Shown: in pieces, positions 3,371 to 36,202 of the stretch | Numbering within the stretch: position 1 is the first letter of the stretch | Layout of the letters: every line of letters begins with the position of its first letter | Source: Candidatus Poribacteria bacterium | GTDB taxonomy: Bacteria; Poribacteria; WGA-4E; WGA-3G | DNA length: 48,229 nucleotides | Reading direction: 5' to 3' | NCBI GenBank assembly: GCA_012270795.1 | Contig: JAAXHO010000073.1 | Coordinates: forward strand, 1 to 48,229 | Translations under genes and position numbers: made by a program | Notes under the pieces: model-generated | What the model saw: the letters and a program-made list of their open reading frames with translations, nothing else | Told to the model about the DNA's origin: nothing | The model's database searches: none

Positions 3371-4111
3371 ATGAACGTTCTACTGATAGGTGGTTCTGGA
3401 CACGTCGGAACTATGACACTCCCCTATATGAAAGAACATCACAATTTCCGCGTGCTTGATCTATCTCCACCTAAAGATGCTTCCGTTGAATACATTCAAG
3501 GGTCTGTTACCGATGCGGATATCGTACAGGAAGCGTTGCAAGGGATGGATACATTTGTCTATATGGTAATGTTGCGTCCTACAAGTGACCGTTCATCTAT
3601 CGCAGATTTCCCAGACATCGTTGCAAACTACGATGTCAATGCAAAGGGACTACATATCGTACTTCATGCTGCGAAGGAAGCGGGAATTCGTCACGGTGTT
3701 TACACCAGCACCTTCACCGTGCATGAACGCACTCGTAACAGTTTTCCCTATGAAAACATCGTTCCAAGAGACAATCCAGGCGTTTACGGATTAACAAAAA
3801 GTTTTGGTGAACAGGTTTGTGAATACTTTGCCCGTGAACACGGCATGTCTCTCATCGCGCTACGTATTACAGGTCCATCTACACGGGAGCAGTGGTTAGA
3901 ACGCCGCAACCAACCGAAAGACTCGTCTGTGCATATCTGGTGGACCGATGAAGAAGACTTGGCGCGCGCCTATCTTGCTGCAATTTCGGTTGAACATGAA
4001 GGATTTGACGCAGTTTTCATTGCAGGAGATTATGAACAAAAGGAAATCAATCTCTCAAAAGCAAAGCGGTTGTTAGGTTGGGAACCGTTGACGCATACGT
4101 TAGCATTGTAA
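3371..4111 (+). CDS. NAD-dependent epimerase/dehydratase family protein
   Basis: A 246-residue extended short-chain dehydrogenase. The N-terminal Rossmann motif is G7-GSGHVG13. The catalytic pair is Y139-GLT-K143, with a preceding YTSTF strand at 111-115 supplying the usual Ser/Thr. These features match the NAD(P)-dependent sugar-nucleotide epimerase/dehydratase family. The chain is rather short for a full epimerase (usually 300 or more), and the C-terminal substrate domain is reduced, so the substrate is unclear. The ATG at 3371 follows AAGGA. It reads alone: 88 bases after the WD40 gene and before the sdh promoter. Confidence 0.85.
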   Translation: MNVLLIGGSGHVGTMTLPYMKEHHNFRVLDLSPPKDASVEYIQGSVTDADIVQEALQGMDTFVYMVMLRPTSDRSSIADFPDIVANYDVNAKGLHIVLHAAKEAGIRHGVYTSTFTVHERTRNSFPYENIVPRDNPGVYGLTKSFGEQVCEYFAREHGMSLIALRITGPSTREQWLERRNQPKDSSVHIWWTDEEDLARAYLAAISVEHEGFDAVFIAGDYEQKEINLSKAKRLLGWEPLTHTLAL

Positions 4112-4151
4112 AAAGGCATTTAAGTCTCAAGGTTATTTAGTTTTCGTTAAT

Positions 4152-4180
4152 TTGACATAGATTTTGCTTCATGCTACAAT
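4152..4180 (+). promoter_or_regulatory. Strong sigma-70 promoter of the sdh operon
   Basis: A perfect -35 TTGACA (4152-4157), a 17-nt spacer and a TACAAT -10 (4175-4180). Transcription would start near 4187, giving a leader of about 150 nt before the anchor gene. A weaker second candidate is TTGCAC (4279-4284), 17 nt, TATCCT (4302-4307). Confidence 0.75.
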
Positions 4181-4333
4181 ATACTAAAATAAAACCAAGA
4201 GTTTACGCTGCACATCAACAGTATTAAGGCAGATTCATGTGAAAGAAAAACCTAATATCCAAACCGATTATATCCTGCTTGCACTTATTTTTCAAATGTG
4301 GTATCCTATAAGAAATAGAAGGGAAAATTGTCT

Positions 4334-28933: not shown

Positions 28934-31729
28934 TCACTTTCTGAACTCCCACAACAACACGGTCCCGTCCCGACTGCTACTTGCGATTGTTTTTCCATCC
29001 GGACTAAACGAGACGCTATAGACAGATTTTGTATGCCCTGATAGTGTGCGGAGATGTTCACCTGTTTCCACATTCCATAGACGGACGGTATTGTCTGTGC
29101 TACCACTTGCGATTGTTTTTCCATCCGGACTAAACGCGACACCAAAGACCTCCTTCGTATGCCCCGATAGTGTGAGGAGATGTGTGCCCGTGTGTGTGTG
29201 CCACAGACGGATGGTTCTGTCTCTACTTCCACTTGCGATGATATTTCCATTCGGACTAAACGCCACGCTATTAACTTCATCTGTATGCTCGGTCAGAGTG
29301 CGGATATGTTCGTGTGTTTTTACATTCCACAGACGGATGGTTCCGTCCCTACTTCCACTTGCGATTAGGTGTCCATTCGGGCTAAACACCACGCTCCAGA
29401 CCGAACCCTCATGCCCAGATAGTGTGCGGAGCTGTTGTCCTGTTTCCACATTCCACAGATGGATGGTTTCGTCTTCAGTTCCGCTTGCGATTAGGTGTCC
29501 ATTCGGGCTAAACGCTACGCTATAGACTGAAGCCCTATTCTTGACCATTGGTTTATCCCCCGATAGCGTGCGGAGGTGTGCGCCATCCTGTGTGTTCCAT
29601 AGACGGATGGTATCGAATTTATTAATGCCATCTGCGACTCCACTTGCACTTGCGATTGTTTTTCCATCCGGACTAAACGCGACACTGGTAATCCCACCCC
29701 CATGTCCATATCCGAGCCCTCCAGCCCCTCCCGATAGTGTGCGGAGATGTTCGCCAGTGTGTGCGTCCCACAGACGAGTTTTACCAGCTCCACTTGGACT
29801 TGCGATGATGTTTCCATCCGGACTAAACGCCACGTTTCTTGCCCCGGGCGTATGTCCGGATAGTGTGCGAATATGTTCGCCAGTGTGTGCATGTTGCAGA
29901 CGGATAGTGTTGTCAGAACTTGCACTTGCGATTGTTTTTCCATCCGGACTAAACGCTACGCTATAGATCGGACCCGTATGTCCCAATAGTTTGCGGAGAT
30001 GTGTGCCTGTGTGTACGTGCCACAGACGGATGTCCCAGAGATTCCAACTTGCCCCTGCAATGATGTGTCCATCGGGACTAAACGACACACTGACAACATC
30101 ACCTGAATACTCCTTTAGTGTGTGGCGGAGTGTGCCATCGTGGGCGTTCCATAGACGGATGTCATTGTCATCGCTGCCACTTGCGATGATGCGTCCATCC
30201 GGGCTAAACGCTACGCATAAAACATCCTTCGTATGTCCCGATAGCGTGCGGAGGTGTTCACCTGTTTCTACATCCCATAGACAGATGGTATCGTCCGCAC
30301 CGCCACTTGCGATGATACGTCCATCCGGGCTAAACACCACGCTTTTGGGAAAATGCCTATGCTCCGATAGTATGCGGAGGTGCTGTCCCGTGCCCACATC
30401 CCACAGACGAATGGCATCCCCCGCACTTGCGATTGTTTTTCCATCCGGGCTAAACGACACACTTTTGGGCCAATGCCTATGCTCCGATAGTGTGCGGATA
30501 TGTTGTCCCGTGTCCACATCCCACAGACGAATGGCATCCCCCGCACTTGCGATTGTTTTTCCATCCGGGCTAAACACCACGCTGACCACCTCACTCGTAT
30601 GTCCTGTGTATAGGTCAAGTTCTGCACCTGTCTGTGTATTGTAGACCCAAATACCGATTGTGCTGGCAACTGCAAGCTTGGTGCCATCGGGAGAGTAAGT
30701 TATTTCATTTATCGCACCTTTACCGAGCCGTGCTTTTGCACCTATGGGTAATTTCCATTGTGTATAATCTTTCACTGTTTCCTCTGTTTGTGTATCTTCT
30801 GATAAAGTAGTGATGTTATTACTTTGCTGCTCGTTAGGATTATCTGTATTTGTCAATACGTTGGTATTTTTGATTTGTAGTCGTACATCAGGGACGGTTT
30901 CCAAGTCAGCGACTATAGGTGCGTCAACGATCTCAACCGTCATCTCATCGGTGGCATCAAAACTGTAAGGTTTCTGAAACATTTGCAAGTATTTGCTATT
31001 TCCAAAACCCAGCATGAGCAACACCACTGCTAACGTAGAGGCTGCTACTGCCCACGGCACTAAAGGTTTACTACCAGACGGTGCAGCGGGTTTGGTACGA
31101 GAAATTTCTTGCATGATGTTTTCTGTGAGATTTGGTGAGATTTTGAAATTGTCTAACGCCTCTCTTATCATCGTTTCCTCTTTTTGTAGACGCTGCTGTG
31201 CGCGGCGAAGGCGACTCTTGACTGTATTTGCCGATACACCTAAAAACGAGCCTATCTCTGTGCATGACATCTCTCCGAAATAGTGTAGTGTCATGACAGT
31301 GCGTTCACTTTCCGCAAGTTTCGCAAGCAGTTTTTTGACGACATCGCGTTGTGCTTCTCGGGATATGCGTTCGTTTTCTTCCACAACAAATTCAGAGTAT
31401 GCTGAATTTTCTAATTGTTCCTTGTCGGTTTGCTCAAGATGCTCTAACGGTTGTGTTCGCAAACGTTTTTTACGCAGCCATGAGCTGCAGCGGTTCGCTG
31501 CAATCACATAAAGCCAACCTACGAAACGTTGCGGTTCTTTCAGGGTCGTCAGTCGCTTGTATGCTTGCAGGAACGTGTCCTGCGTTATCTCTTCGGCGAT
31601 GTGAAAATCACCGATTTTCCGCCATGCAAGTGCGTGAACCTGCTTTTGATATCTTCTCACGAGCAGAGAAAAAGCGTCATCATCGCCTGCAAGGACGCGT
31701 TGAATAAGCTTGACATCATCATTTTCCAT
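28934..31729 (-). CDS. ECF sigma factor fused through a membrane helix to 14 WD40 blades
   Basis: A 931-residue protein with three parts. Residues 10-85 are sigma region 2 (AEEITQDTFLQAY, RFVGWLYVIAANR). Residues about 126-182 are region 4 with a helix-turn-helix (CTEIGSFLGVSANTVKSRLRRA). A single membrane helix is at about 224-243, then a linker, then from about 337 exactly 14 WD40 repeats (SVAFSPDGKTIASGS...RLWDV type), enough for two seven-blade propellers. With the sigma part cytosolic, the propellers would face the periplasm. No separate anti-sigma gene is nearby. Blades 2 and 3 are near-identical copies at DNA level. It reads alone on the minus strand. Confidence 0.9.
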   Translation of the reverse strand: MENDDVKLIQRVLAGDDDAFSLLVRRYQKQVHALAWRKIGDFHIAEEITQDTFLQAYKRLTTLKEPQRFVGWLYVIAANRCSSWLRKKRLRTQPLEHLEQTDKEQLENSAYSEFVVEENERISREAQRDVVKKLLAKLAESERTVMTLHYFGEMSCTEIGSFLGVSANTVKSRLRRAQQRLQKEETMIREALDNFKISPNLTENIMQEISRTKPAAPSGSKPLVPWAVAASTLAVVLLMLGFGNSKYLQMFQKPYSFDATDEMTVEIVDAPIVADLETVPDVRLQIKNTNVLTNTDNPNEQQSNNITTLSEDTQTEETVKDYTQWKLPIGAKARLGKGAINEITYSPDGTKLAVASTIGIWVYNTQTGAELDLYTGHTSEVVSVVFSPDGKTIASAGDAIRLWDVDTGQHIRTLSEHRHWPKSVSFSPDGKTIASAGDAIRLWDVGTGQHLRILSEHRHFPKSVVFSPDGRIIASGGADDTICLWDVETGEHLRTLSGHTKDVLCVAFSPDGRIIASGSDDNDIRLWNAHDGTLRHTLKEYSGDVVSVSFSPDGHIIAGASWNLWDIRLWHVHTGTHLRKLLGHTGPIYSVAFSPDGKTIASASSDNTIRLQHAHTGEHIRTLSGHTPGARNVAFSPDGNIIASPSGAGKTRLWDAHTGEHLRTLSGGAGGLGYGHGGGITSVAFSPDGKTIASASGVADGINKFDTIRLWNTQDGAHLRTLSGDKPMVKNRASVYSVAFSPNGHLIASGTEDETIHLWNVETGQQLRTLSGHEGSVWSVVFSPNGHLIASGSRDGTIRLWNVKTHEHIRTLTEHTDEVNSVAFSPNGNIIASGSRDRTIRLWHTHTGTHLLTLSGHTKEVFGVAFSPDGKTIASGSTDNTVRLWNVETGEHLRTLSGHTKSVYSVSFSPDGKTIASSSRDGTVLLWEFRK
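30361..30600 (-). repeat. 120-bp tandem duplication within the WD40 array
   Basis: Units 30361-30480 and 30481-30600 share an exact block of about 62 bases (30394-30455 and 30514-30575) and encode two nearly identical blades ([20 protein letters not shown] type). The similarity exceeds that of the other blades, indicating recent duplication or gene conversion. Confidence 0.8.
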
Positions 31730-32137: not shown

Positions 32138-32274
32138 GTACAAATCCCGCGCCCTCCGCGGTTCAGTGGGATACGGAATCGGAATTCACAGATTAAACGA
32201 AAAACACTGTCATTCACGATACTGGCAGAAATGCAAGCAACAATTGAATAGTCCTGGTCAGAAGTCAAATTAAT

Positions 32275-32303
32275 TTGACTTCTGACACAATATATCGTAT
32301 AAT
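32275..32303 (+). promoter_or_regulatory. Strong sigma-70 promoter of the histidine operon
   Basis: TTGACT (32275-32280), 17-nt spacer, perfect TATAAT (32298-32303). Transcription would start near 32310, about 27 bases before the leader ORF and about 280 bases before hisZ. Confidence 0.8.
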
Positions 32304-32336
32304 TATTATAGGAAATTAAATTTATCAAAATATGTT

Positions 32337-32384
32337 ATGACTATGCTATTTTTTGGCAACCATCATCATTCAATTCATTCCTGA
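32337..32384 (+). CDS. hisL: Histidine leader peptide
   Basis: A 15-codon ORF reading MTMLFFGNHHHSIHS then TGA. Four of 15 codons are CAT (His), three of them consecutive. It lies between a strong promoter and hisZ-hisG-hisS and is followed by competing hairpins and a terminator-like hairpin. This is the standard logic of a histidine attenuator: ribosome stalling at His codons when charged His-tRNA is scarce. The ribosome site is weak (AGGAAA at 32310-32315, far upstream), and ATG 32343 is an alternative start that keeps all His codons. Confidence 0.7.
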   Translation: MTMLFFGNHHHSIHS

Positions 32385-32539
32385 GTAGGGCGGATTAGAT
32401 GATGCGGTAATATTCTTATACATCATAGTGGACACGCAGCAAGAAAAACTTGCTACTATCCCGGTGAACTAACCGCTCTCCTCCGCGCCGAGTTATCGGC
32501 ACGTTGAGACCATGGAGCAGCTTGTTTGCTGGGTTTTTT
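32361..32539 (+). promoter_or_regulatory. Histidine attenuator: competing helices and terminator-like hairpin
   Basis: The His codons CATCATC (32361-32367) can pair with GATGATG (32398-32404). The same segment can instead pair with CATCAT (32421-32426). These are mutually exclusive, as between segments 1:2 and 2:3 of classical attenuators. Further hairpins are AGCAAG/CTTGCT (32438-32454, extended by ATAGT/ACTAT) and GCCGA/TCGGC (32487-32500). A short stem CAGC/GCTG (32518-32531), with outer ACC/GGT pairing, is followed by T6 (32534-32539). The final stem is weak as drawn. No canonical T-box sequence is seen. Confidence 0.6.
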
Positions 32540-32587
32540 GTTTAAAAGAAAACACGTTTACATCTTATTTTATTGGAGTAGTACATA

Positions 32588-34033
32588 ATGGAAAAGTTTA
32601 CGAAACCCGAAGGAACGAACGATTTTCTACCGGACGAGATGGTGCAACGAAACTTCGCTGAAAATGTCGTGCGTGAAACTTTTGAAAGTTACGGATACGC
32701 ACAGATTCAGACACCCCTGTTTGAATCCTTTGCGCTCTTGTCCGCGCAATCTGGCGAAGAGATACGTCATAAAATGTTTACATTTGTCGGACCAGATCGG
32801 GTAGACTATGCACTCAGACCCGAACTCACTGCACCCGTCTGTCGACTCATTGCGAATGGAGACCTAAGACATTTACCTTATCCATATAAACTCTATTACA
32901 TTGGACAATGTGTTCGCCATGAACCAAAAACAGATAATTTAGAGGTTCGGCGTGAATTCTGTCAGGCTGGCGTAGAATTGATTGGGCCTGACTCTCCGCT
33001 GGCTGATGCAGAGATTATAGCAATACCTGTACAAGTTCTTGAAAAACTCAATATTTCACAGACGCAATTGAAAATCGGAAATACAGGTACTTTCCGTGAG
33101 TTGTTTAAACAATCCGTGGTTGATCCCAAAGATCTTAGTGAAGTAATATTGGATATTGACCATCTTTCTCGCCTCAGGACAGAAAGCCAACTGATGGACA
33201 CAGAAACACTTCAAGATGAACTCAATGTGTTGCGAAGGCTGCAAGGCGTTTCCTATCAAGGAGAACATCAGATTAAGACATCTGATGTTCAGGAGTTAAC
33301 AGAAAACGAATCTGCTACTTGGAAAGAGAAGTTACCACTAATTGCAGAAGAAACCTACAAAGCAAAATGGCACCGATTTTTCAGTATTTCGGAAGAAGTG
33401 GCGCAGCGTTGTATTGATGTGTCAAAAATAAGTGGTGATAAAGACACGGTCATGGCAGCGTGGGATACAAGTATAGGAGATGCTGCACAGGTCGTCCGAC
33501 AACAACTTATTGAACTATGTGAGTATTTGGAGAACTATGATATTACAGACTATGAAATCAATTTAGGTATTACACGAGGTTTTGATTTCTATACTGGGAC
33601 AGTTTTTCAAATTGAATTATCTAAAAATAATGTACCAATCTGTGGTGGTGGTCGGTATGATAGATTGATTGAAAGTTTTGGCGGTCCTTCACTTCCGGGT
33701 GCAGGTTTTGCTTTCCAGTTTGATTCACTGATAGAAGCATACTTGGCTGCGCAGAAATATCCCATTCAAAAGAAAAAAGATTACTTTATTGTTACAACGT
33801 CTCCACAAAATATCAGTGCAGTACAACAGCTTGCTGATATATTTAGGCGTTCAGGTAAGACCGTAGAGGTAGATTTAATGGGGCAGAACCTTCAAGAACA
33901 ATATGCCTATGCTGCAAAAGCGAATTACGATTATGTAATTAACTTTGTTCAAGACCAGAAGTTGCAGCGGATACAACTAAAGACAGGGAATAAGGAGGAA
34001 GTTCCCCTTGAAGATTTAGATAAATGGTTTTAG
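32588..34033 (+). CDS. hisZ: ATP phosphoribosyltransferase regulatory subunit (HisS-like)
   Basis: A 481-residue class II aminoacyl-tRNA-synthetase paralog. Motif 2 reads VRREFCQAGVELIG, the HisZ form, rather than the GRYRQF of true HisS. The His-binding segment is RGFDFYTGTVFQI, and motif 3 is GGGRYDRLIESFGGPSLPGAGFAF. HisZ serves short HisG as its regulatory partner. It is longer than typical HisZ because a C-terminal anticodon-domain-like region (about 400-481) is retained, and an insert of about 80 residues lies in the middle. Directly downstream is a hisG without its regulatory domain. GGAG precedes ATG 32588. Confidence 0.8.
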   Translation: MEKFTKPEGTNDFLPDEMVQRNFAENVVRETFESYGYAQIQTPLFESFALLSAQSGEEIRHKMFTFVGPDRVDYALRPELTAPVCRLIANGDLRHLPYPYKLYYIGQCVRHEPKTDNLEVRREFCQAGVELIGPDSPLADAEIIAIPVQVLEKLNISQTQLKIGNTGTFRELFKQSVVDPKDLSEVILDIDHLSRLRTESQLMDTETLQDELNVLRRLQGVSYQGEHQIKTSDVQELTENESATWKEKLPLIAEETYKAKWHRFFSISEEVAQRCIDVSKISGDKDTVMAAWDTSIGDAAQVVRQQLIELCEYLENYDITDYEINLGITRGFDFYTGTVFQIELSKNNVPICGGGRYDRLIESFGGPSLPGAGFAFQFDSLIEAYLAAQKYPIQKKKDYFIVTTSPQNISAVQQLADIFRRSGKTVEVDLMGQNLQEQYAYAAKANYDYVINFVQDQKLQRIQLKTGNKEEVPLEDLDKWF

Positions 34034-34082: not shown

Positions 34083-34853
34083 ATGGAAACAGAAAAGACT
34101 TTGAACTTACTATTGCCGAAAGGCACTATTCAGTCTGAGACGCTTGAGACGTTTCAGCGTGCAGGCTATGAAATGAACGGATATAAGCCAACCGACCGGT
34201 CCTATCGTGCGACTTTTCGCGATGATAATGACATTCAGATAAAGATTTCTCGTCCGCAAGAGATACCTGTATATGTCGGTATGGATGATTTCTACGATTT
34301 AGGGGTGACAGGACAAGATTGGGTGGAGGAAACCGATGCGGATGTTGAGGAAATTTTACCGTTAGCGTATGGATATGTAAGCATAGTGCTTGCAGTTCGT
34401 GAGGAGCGCGACGACATCAATACTTTTACAGATTTGGTAAACCTTGCCGATAGGAACATACGCATATCTACTGAATATCTGAACATCGCTGAGAAATATA
34501 TCCTTGAAAAGACCGAGAACCGTGTCGCACCAGCAATCCTAACCCCGTGGAAACGACTAAACACACTTGGCACATACCAATCTCCTATTACATTGACGCT
34601 CTCTTTTGGGGCAACCGAAGGGAAACCTCCTGAAGAAGCGGATGCTATCATTGACAACTGTAGTTCGGCACGCACGCTCAAAGCCAACCACCTGAAGATA
34701 GTAGAAGTCCTGCGCGAATCGGCATCTACACTCATCGCGAACCCCAAGTCACTCAAAGACCCTTGGAAACGGGAAAAGATTGACGAATTGAAGGAAACAT
34801 TAGCAAAGGGATTGCTGCGGCGGCGAAGTCAAGCACTTCCCGGACACATATAA
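34083..34853 (+). CDS. hisG: ATP phosphoribosyltransferase, catalytic subunit (short form)
   Basis: First step of histidine synthesis: ATP plus PRPP to phosphoribosyl-ATP. The 256-residue chain begins LNLLLPKGTIQSETLETFQRAG, a typical HisG start, and has DLGVTGQDWVEE. The C-terminal ACT-like histidine-binding domain of long HisG is missing, which fits dependence on the HisZ encoded just upstream. The PRPP-binding loop is not the textbook form: ADAIIDNCSSARTLKAN occupies the place of the usual D-x-(I/V)-D-x-(V/T)-x-T-G-x-T-L-x-x-N. GAGGA precedes the ATG. Confidence 0.82.
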   Translation: METEKTLNLLLPKGTIQSETLETFQRAGYEMNGYKPTDRSYRATFRDDNDIQIKISRPQEIPVYVGMDDFYDLGVTGQDWVEETDADVEEILPLAYGYVSIVLAVREERDDINTFTDLVNLADRNIRISTEYLNIAEKYILEKTENRVAPAILTPWKRLNTLGTYQSPITLTLSFGATEGKPPEEADAIIDNCSSARTLKANHLKIVEVLRESASTLIANPKSLKDPWKREKIDELKETLAKGLLRRRSQALPGHI

Positions 34854-34864
34854 GGAGCAAGATT

Positions 34865-36202
34865 ATGTCAACTTTCATAAAACCGCGCGTGCCACGTGGT
34901 ATGCGGGACATTCTACCTGAACAGATGATTCGTAGACAGTATGTGATAGATGTTATCCGTGATGTGTTTGAGGAATTTGGGTTTGAACCGTTGCAGACAC
35001 CCGCACTAGAATTGTCTGAAGTGCTGACTGGCAAATACGGACCGGATGCAGAAAAACTGATCTATCAGGCAGGCCATACGGGGGGAAAAGAGGATATTTC
35101 ACTTCGCTACGATCTTTCTGTTCCGCTCTGCCGTGTTATTGCGATGTATCCACAACTGCCGAAACCGTTTAAGCGGTATCAGATTGATCCTGTGTGGCGT
35201 GCAGAACGCCCTCAAAAAGGGCGTTATCGTCAGTTTTTTCAGTGTGATGCAGATACCGTCGGTAGTGAAAGTATGTTAGCGGATGCAGAAAATGTAAATC
35301 TGGTTTATCAGGTTTTATCACGACTCGGTTTCAAACAATTTGAAATCAATATCAACGATAGGAAACTGATTACTGGAATAGGACAATATGCTGGTGTTCC
35401 AACTGCACAACTTGGCGGACTTTATCGTTCTATTGACAAATTAGACAAGATCGGTGTGGATGGAGTCATCGCAGAATTACGGGAAAATGAGATACCTGAA
35501 GATGTTATTGAAAAGTTGATAGAGTTGCTACAAATTGGAGGTGATGCTGCGGATGTGCTAACTGATATGAATCAACGACTCGGTAGCTCAGAAATCGCAC
35601 GAGAAGGTATTGCAGATTTGGAAAAACTAATCAATCATCTTACAATACTTGGTGTACCAGAACAGTATTACAGAGTTAACGTTGCTATGGTGCGAGGCTT
35701 GGAATACTACACTGGACCTATATACGAAACGGTTGTTGAAGAACCGAAGATAGGTAGCATCACGGGTGGCGGCAGGTATGACGAACTTATCGGAAGTTTC
35801 AGTAAACAGAGTTACCCCGCAACAGGAACAAGTTTTGGTATTGAACGGATTATTGATGTGATGGAAGAATTTGATATGTTTCCAGTGTCTGTGGGTAAAA
35901 CGGTAACCCAAGTGCTCATGACCGTTTTTGATGACCAGTTGATGGATGAATCACTGAAATTAGCAACTGTGTTAAGACAAGGGGGTATACGAACAGAGAT
36001 GTATTTCCGACCGACCAAAATCAGTGCGCAGTTGAAATATGCTGGAAATAAAGGTATACCTTATGCAGTCATTCTTGGATCAGATGAGTTAGCAGGGGGA
36101 AACGCAGCTGTTCGTGATTTGACAACCAGAGAACAGGAAAATGTTCCGTTGGATAAAGTTGTTGAAACGATTAAGTCTATGATAAGAACAGTATCGGACT
36201 AA
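34865..36202 (+). CDS. hisS: Histidyl-tRNA synthetase
   Basis: Charges tRNA-His. The 445-residue chain has motif 2 with VWRAERPQKGRYRQFFQCD, the His-specific segment RGLEYYTGPIYE, motif 3 GGGRYDELIGSFSKQSYPATGTSFGIERI and a C-terminal anticodon-binding domain (about 345-440). It begins 11 bases after hisG, with AAGGAG overlapping the hisG stop, so translation is likely coupled. Its 3' end overlaps that of the convergent AAA gene by four bases. Placement behind a His-codon leader would let charged tRNA-His control its own synthetase. Confidence 0.93.
   Translation: MSTFIKPRVPRGMRDILPEQMIRRQYVIDVIRDVFEEFGFEPLQTPALELSEVLTGKYGPDAEKLIYQAGHTGGKEDISLRYDLSVPLCRVIAMYPQLPKPFKRYQIDPVWRAERPQKGRYRQFFQCDADTVGSESMLADAENVNLVYQVLSRLGFKQFEININDRKLITGIGQYAGVPTAQLGGLYRSIDKLDKIGVDGVIAELRENEIPEDVIEKLIELLQIGGDAADVLTDMNQRLGSSEIAREGIADLEKLINHLTILGVPEQYYRVNVAMVRGLEYYTGPIYETVVEEPKIGSITGGGRYDELIGSFSKQSYPATGTSFGIERIIDVMEEFDMFPVSVGKTVTQVLMTVFDDQLMDESLKLATVLRQGGIRTEMYFRPTKISAQLKYAGNKGIPYAVILGSDELAGGNAAVRDLTTREQENVPLDKVVETIKSMIRTVSD

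Follow-up and report, generated by a model that had tools for sequence, protein, structure and literature searches.

The hisZ-hisG-hisS operon of a Candidatus Poribacteria genome is very probably controlled by a ribosome-mediated transcription attenuator. By sequence comparison and folding, we showed that the parts of this element are present and conserved and that its alternative structures are mutually exclusive; ribosome stalling and transcription termination are what these parts, read from the sequence, would bring about. A preliminary description of the window (the whole 48,229-nt stretch of DNA analysed here, on contig C157 of an assembly totalling 5.18 Mb) had proposed a leader-peptide attenuator outside Proteobacteria ahead of these genes, and we found this proposal supported, with relatives keeping both the His codons and the segments that pair. 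The two sequence features expected of this attenuator class, an ORF with a run of His codons (HHH or HHHH) and a terminator before the first gene, were each found in 52/52 leaders.

In the proposed mechanism, transcription would start near 32310 and the leader ORF would be translated while RNA polymerase moves on. When charged tRNA-His is low, the ribosome would stall on the CAT run (segment A) with its front edge short of segment B. B (GGGCGG) would then pair with segment D (CCGCTC), the inner terminator helices would be blocked, and the 5' strand of the terminator stem P1 would be trapped in the antiterminator loop, allowing transcription into hisZGS. With ample charged tRNA-His, the ribosome at the stop codon would cover B and leave D free, the terminator would fold, and transcription would stop at about 32539, within the T6 run. 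If the leader is not translated, A would pair with B and the terminator would fold, making off the default state. Histidine shortage would in this way lead to more histidine enzymes and more of the cell's only histidyl-tRNA synthetase.

Gene cassette, promoter and leader ORF

The cassette begins with a hisZ-like gene (32588..34033, +) encoding a HisRS paralogue without the motif-3 arginine, followed by hisG, encoding ATP phosphoribosyltransferase (34083..34853, +; TIGR00070 above cut-off), and hisS (34865..36202, +; TIGR00442 above cut-off), the sole HisRS found in the genome. The hisZ-like product scored 223 bits against the HisZ model TIGR00443, below the curated cut-off of 271.65, and 284.4 bits against the hisS model, just below the cut-off of 286.75. 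In 30/30 hisZ orthologues read, the motif-3 ER is replaced by D[S/A/V/L], giving FD[S/A/V/L]L versus IERI in true HisS. We argue that the first gene is HisZ, because its product lacks the arginine that class II synthetases carry in motif 3 and because of its place beside hisG; a paralogue that lacks a complete aminoacylation site and adjoins hisG is what HisZ is expected to be. Orthologues in relatives are 60-93% identical to the HisZ of the window. The three genes are contiguous in 29/29 loci read, a scan of the window found no terminator-like site between them, and they are probably co-transcribed. Upstream, at 28934-31729 on the minus strand, lies a gene for a 931-aa protein that, by reading of its translation, appears to fuse the N-terminus of an ECF sigma factor to a long WD40-repeat domain.

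The TTGACT-17-TATAAT promoter reported earlier is present at 32275..32303 (+), with the -35 box at 32275-32280 and the -10 box at 32298-32303. It is of the sigma-70 type with 11/12 matches, and the form TTGAC[AT]-17/18-TATAAT is kept in 48/52 relatives, while a single match of that quality per 3 kb is not above shuffles. The predicted transcription start lies near 32310. We also observed a perfect 30-bp palindrome (32257-32286; GTCAGAAGTCAAATT/AATTTGACTTCTGAC) overlapping the -35 box, a possible operator. It occurs as a single copy in the genome, and we rejected the idea that it is a genomic repeat. Shorter inverted repeats near the -35 box were seen by eye in L041, L049 and L057 and are absent from some other relatives.

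The 15-codon ORF with four CAT codons, three of them in a row, is present as described at 32337..32384 (+) and encodes MTMLFFGNHHHSIHS before its stop codon. The second ATG (32343, giving MLFFGNHHHSIHS before the same stop) is an alternative and may be the conserved start rather than 32337; across the family the ORF has 13-15 codons with a CAT-CAT-CAT run. All 52 aligned leaders encode HHHS[IV]H or HHHHSVH, or near variants. The run HHH(H) is intact in 52/52, and the sole variation inside it is CAT versus CAC. Outside the run, the later His codon is swapped for Tyr or Asp in 3 of these genomes, a Val codon is deleted in frame in 3, and 2 carry single-base deletions 3' of the His run with a nearby stop still reached. 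The distance from the stop codon to segment B is 6 nt in 46/52 leaders. The constancy of the His run, the in-frame deletion, the kept stops and the fixed stop-to-B spacing favour translation of the leader as the conserved function, and the ORF is probably translated. Since the His run is fixed while later codons change, the kept part of the leader coincides with the region where a stalled ribosome would leave B uncovered. In one genome (L023), the leader stop is lost (TGA to TGG) and the peptide is extended through segment B; here the model predicts weaker or altered control.

None of the leader ORFs (0/52) is preceded within 18 nt by a Shine-Dalgarno-like 4-mer (GGAG, GAGG, AGGA or AAGG), compared with 27/52 for hisZ, and in the window the region before the ORF (32320-32343) lacks such a motif. 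Translation of the leader may start by a route other than Shine-Dalgarno pairing.

Terminator and switching strands

We found the T6-tailed terminator claimed before hisZ. Its stem P1 is formed by CCCGGTGAAC (32460..32469, +) and GTTTGCTGGG (32524-32533), the latter continuing into the U-run (T6, 32534-32539; whole segment 32524..32539, +). The two P1 strands pair in 98.8% of alignment cells, with double changes at two pairs, and P1 and the T-run occur in 52/52 leaders with compensatory changes. The inner helices P2 (GCTCT/GGAGC) and P3 (CGCGCCG/CGGCACG) occupy 32475..32518 (+), and 6/7 pairs of P3 show a compensatory change. Over the terminator as a whole, 94.9% of alignment cells pair and nine pairs have changed on both sides, a covariation that no shuffle or slid control comes near. 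A simple terminator scanner missed the P1 hairpin because this long-range stem is too wide. The stretch from the terminator to hisZ (32540-32587 in the window) spans 22-386 nt in the aligned set and is longer in L048; in several genomes it is apparently filled with inserted sequence.

The strands of the switch were located as follows. Segment A (32361..32378, +) comprises the regulatory His codons CATCATCAT followed by TCAATTCAT, and pairs with segment B in ribosome-free RNA. B, the switching strand, has the core GGGCGG (32388..32393, +), whose start lies 6 nt downstream of the first stop-codon base, and reads GRGCGGAT in 52/52 aligned leaders. The switching strand also includes the extension TTAG (32395-32398, +), and the 3' part of B, ATTAGATGATG (32394..32404, +), base-pairs with the His codons to make up the A:B hairpin, in keeping with the pairing that had been claimed between the His codons and the GATGATG region. 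Segment D, CTAACCGCTCT (32469..32479, +), adjoins the P1 5' strand and is common to P2; its CCGCTC is the partner of B.

Comparison and folding thus indicate that the antiterminator is GRGCGG (B) with CCGCTC (D, inside the terminator arm), not GATGATG with CATCAT as first described. The latter segments (32398-32404 and 32421..32426, +) are indeed present in the window, where they form a short-range hairpin within the loop of the antiterminator. As a conserved switch they fail, and we rejected them as the antiterminator: the exact pair occurs in 1/52 relatives and makes no contact with the terminator. The hairpin may at most help to keep the His codons free.

B:D is paired in 99.7% of alignment cells, but both strands hardly vary, so the helix itself shows no covariation. 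Leaders of the 3-His class lengthen it by TTAG:CTAA, an extension lost in the 4-His class; in L016, the only 4-His leader examined closely, the pairing of B runs on into the P1 5' strand through AGGG:CCCU. B in addition folds back on the His region (GGAT with RTCC, plus flanks), and this second pairing can explain why GRGCGGAT is fixed. A 6-bp downstream match to B arose by chance in about half of the shuffles of one sequence. Two leaders fit poorly: one B:D pair is broken in L015, and L004 forms little B:D in the folding model.

Between B and the terminator, a small hairpin, GCAAG-(AAAAA)-CTTGC (32439..32453, +), is paired in 99.6% of alignment cells and lost in L058. It sits inside the antiterminator loop and might be a pause site. 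Many 4-His genomes, L016 among them, have a second, similar GCAAG...CTTGC hairpin 5' of the leader ORF.

Conservation, ribosome position and rival explanations

Upstream regions of orthologous loci were read for 56 genomes, and 52 were aligned from the leader ORF to the terminator; the remaining 4 were cut by the contig end or by the 700-nt extraction limit. Among these 4, the downstream half of the element is visible in 3, and in the fourth the leader is on another contig. The loss of His codons or pairing segments in relatives had been named in advance as a refutation of the attenuator; the relatives keep both. Full-length orthologues of the window's hisZ were confined to one family (f1) of the class, and the records of all relatives with the same leader carry the name Candidatus or uncultured Poribacteria. 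With a covariance model trained on 26 leaders, we found the element in 56/59 genomes of this family, one per genome save one, and in 0/24 other genomes of the class. Of the three family genomes without it, two have no detectable hisZ or hisG, and the contig of the third begins beside hisG. The exception with two copies is assembly RHO3_bin_69 (L067), whose second copy (3929-4246) lies at a contig end and probably comes from another strain in the bin, not from an additional locus. We also searched a collection of one genome per species (84,980 species) with an exact core pattern and obtained 38 matches, all in Poribacteria; in 36/38 hisZ follows at a distance of 189-702 nt, and the remaining two are cut by the contig or locus end.

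No short ORF with a His run was found at 46 hisG/hisS loci (44 from outside the family), and no His leader was found at hisG or hisS in the same class outside family f1. Inside the family, no His or Phe leader of the expected kind precedes hisD or pheS. Without matching leaders at these genes, the attenuator looks like a single, operon-specific device. As for trpE, the one candidate leader ORF was unconvincing; it comes from just one genome, which belongs to a different family of the order. Outside family f1, HisG reading frames in the class are mostly about 290-340 codons long, and hisS scores differently (up to 512 bits versus 393). Family f1 appears from its isolate names to be a sponge-associated lineage. 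It is conceivable, though we consider it doubtful, that sponge-associated Poribacteria once had a long HisG and a separate hisS and swapped this ancestral state for a self-attenuated hisZ-hisG-hisS cassette whose leader ORF starts without a Shine-Dalgarno sequence, bringing their only HisRS under direct feedback from charged tRNA-His.

The preliminary description had suggested comparing folds with and without a ribosome. We folded 52 leaders, each as far as the P1 3' strand, in three states. In ribosome-free RNA, the mean probability of B:D was 0.08 (median 0.00); a ribosome over the His run raised it to 0.92 (median 1.00), and one at the stop codon reduced it to 0.00 (median 0.00). The window's own values were 0.06, 0.90 and 0.00. 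In a scan with a footprint of 30 nt, B:D rises once the ribosome front has moved about 12 nt beyond the first His codon position and falls to zero at 30-33 nt, where the front meets B, so that it forms at about +12 to +27 nt only. By computation, then, the position of the ribosome sets which of antiterminator and terminator can form. When the full RNA is folded at equilibrium, most leaders form the terminator despite a stalled ribosome (mean P1 0.70). Therefore, antitermination must be kinetic, and the antiterminator needs to form first, as is thought to hold for such attenuators generally.

Three other explanations were weighed against attenuation. In a T-box riboswitch, uncharged tRNA-His would read CAT as a specifier codon placed in a loop, and the leader would not be translated. 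In Firmicutes, such elements regulate both his genes and hisS (PMC9413887; PMC2965389), and a terminator is present here as well. We regard this reading as extremely improbable: the Rfam T-box (RF00230) was unmatched at the gathering threshold and at E<=10, several in-frame CAT/CAC codons with a start and a stop occur in 52/52 leaders together with an in-frame codon deletion, and B keeps its fixed distance from the stop codon. Somewhat less remote, but still quite unlikely, is a leader that acts by translation or as a binding site for RNA or protein (e.g., HisZ, HisG or HisS on its own leader), without stalling and with a constitutive terminator. The very strong conservation of B and of the GCAAG hairpin fits such a site, as does the missing Shine-Dalgarno sequence of the leader ORF. 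The conservation of B is nevertheless explained by its two partners, A and D, and this reading gives the ORF and its His run no reason to persist. A binding site also fits poorly with the terminator lying 22 to several hundred nt upstream of hisZ, with varied intervening sequence, which leaves the hisZ ribosome site free in most genomes.

The window by itself would also be compatible with a rho-independent terminator beside a chance His-rich ORF and no regulation at all, since its folding energy is unexceptional (z = -1.76) and promoter and terminator scans gave near-chance counts. The case for attenuation is for this reason carried by the comparative evidence. The leader is found in 56/59 family genomes, always before hisZ, and His-run ORFs are missing both from the 46 hisG/hisS loci and before hisD. 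This conservation refutes chance, unless it reflects mere close kinship; the HisZ orthologues are 60-93% identical to that of the window, and we give a chance origin almost no credence.

Comparison with known attenuators

Poribacteria are, to our knowledge, a candidate phylum without cultured members, and we found no earlier report of a His leader in them in the open-access literature. No Rfam family matching the leader was found, and the enterobacterial His_leader (RF00514) was unmatched at the gathering threshold and among matches with E<=10. Comparison and folding indicate that this is ordinary ribosome-mediated attenuation in such a lineage. It adds a comparatively supported leader-peptide attenuator whose RNA elements are missed by existing family models, and the 52-leader alignment and covariance model could seed a new Rfam family. 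The element is consistent with the view that leader-peptide attenuation has originated repeatedly, and it offers a testable case in which the first histidine enzyme and the synthetase charging the sensed tRNA would both be set by a single attenuator.

In E. coli pheM-pheST, an aminoacyl-tRNA synthetase is likewise placed under a leader peptide of its own amino acid, whereas the Poribacteria synthetase shares its operon with the first biosynthetic enzyme. The three-part scheme described here (A:B, B:D, terminator) is nearer to the trp 1:2, 2:3 and 3:4 pairings than to the A-F segments of hisL. As in enterobacterial hisL (RF00514), a stall at tandem His codons would select antiterminator or terminator, but the Poribacteria leader has 3-4 consecutive His codons and hisL has seven.

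Outside Proteobacteria, Naville and Gautheret in 2010 described bacilli in which hisZ and hisS* are preceded by a His leader peptide (PMC2965389); leader-peptide systems were then known, according to the same paper, from Proteobacteria and Actinobacteria only. His attenuators were also described in the Bacillus cereus group, Peptostreptococcaceae and Erysipelotrichales (PMC9413887). Because of these cases, a His leader outside Proteobacteria, or before a hisZ/hisS gene, is not new as a kind. The bacilli leader resembles that of Poribacteria in its short His-run ORF, premature terminator, hisZ as first gene and hisS paralogue (PMC2965389), a likeness drawn from the published description; in Poribacteria, the leader precedes hisZ-hisG and the sole HisRS in one operon. 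The Firmicutes attenuators share His codons in a row (three to five) and a terminator with an alternative antiterminator, but they precede biosynthetic his operons (PMC9413887), whereas hisD in family f1 has no such leader.
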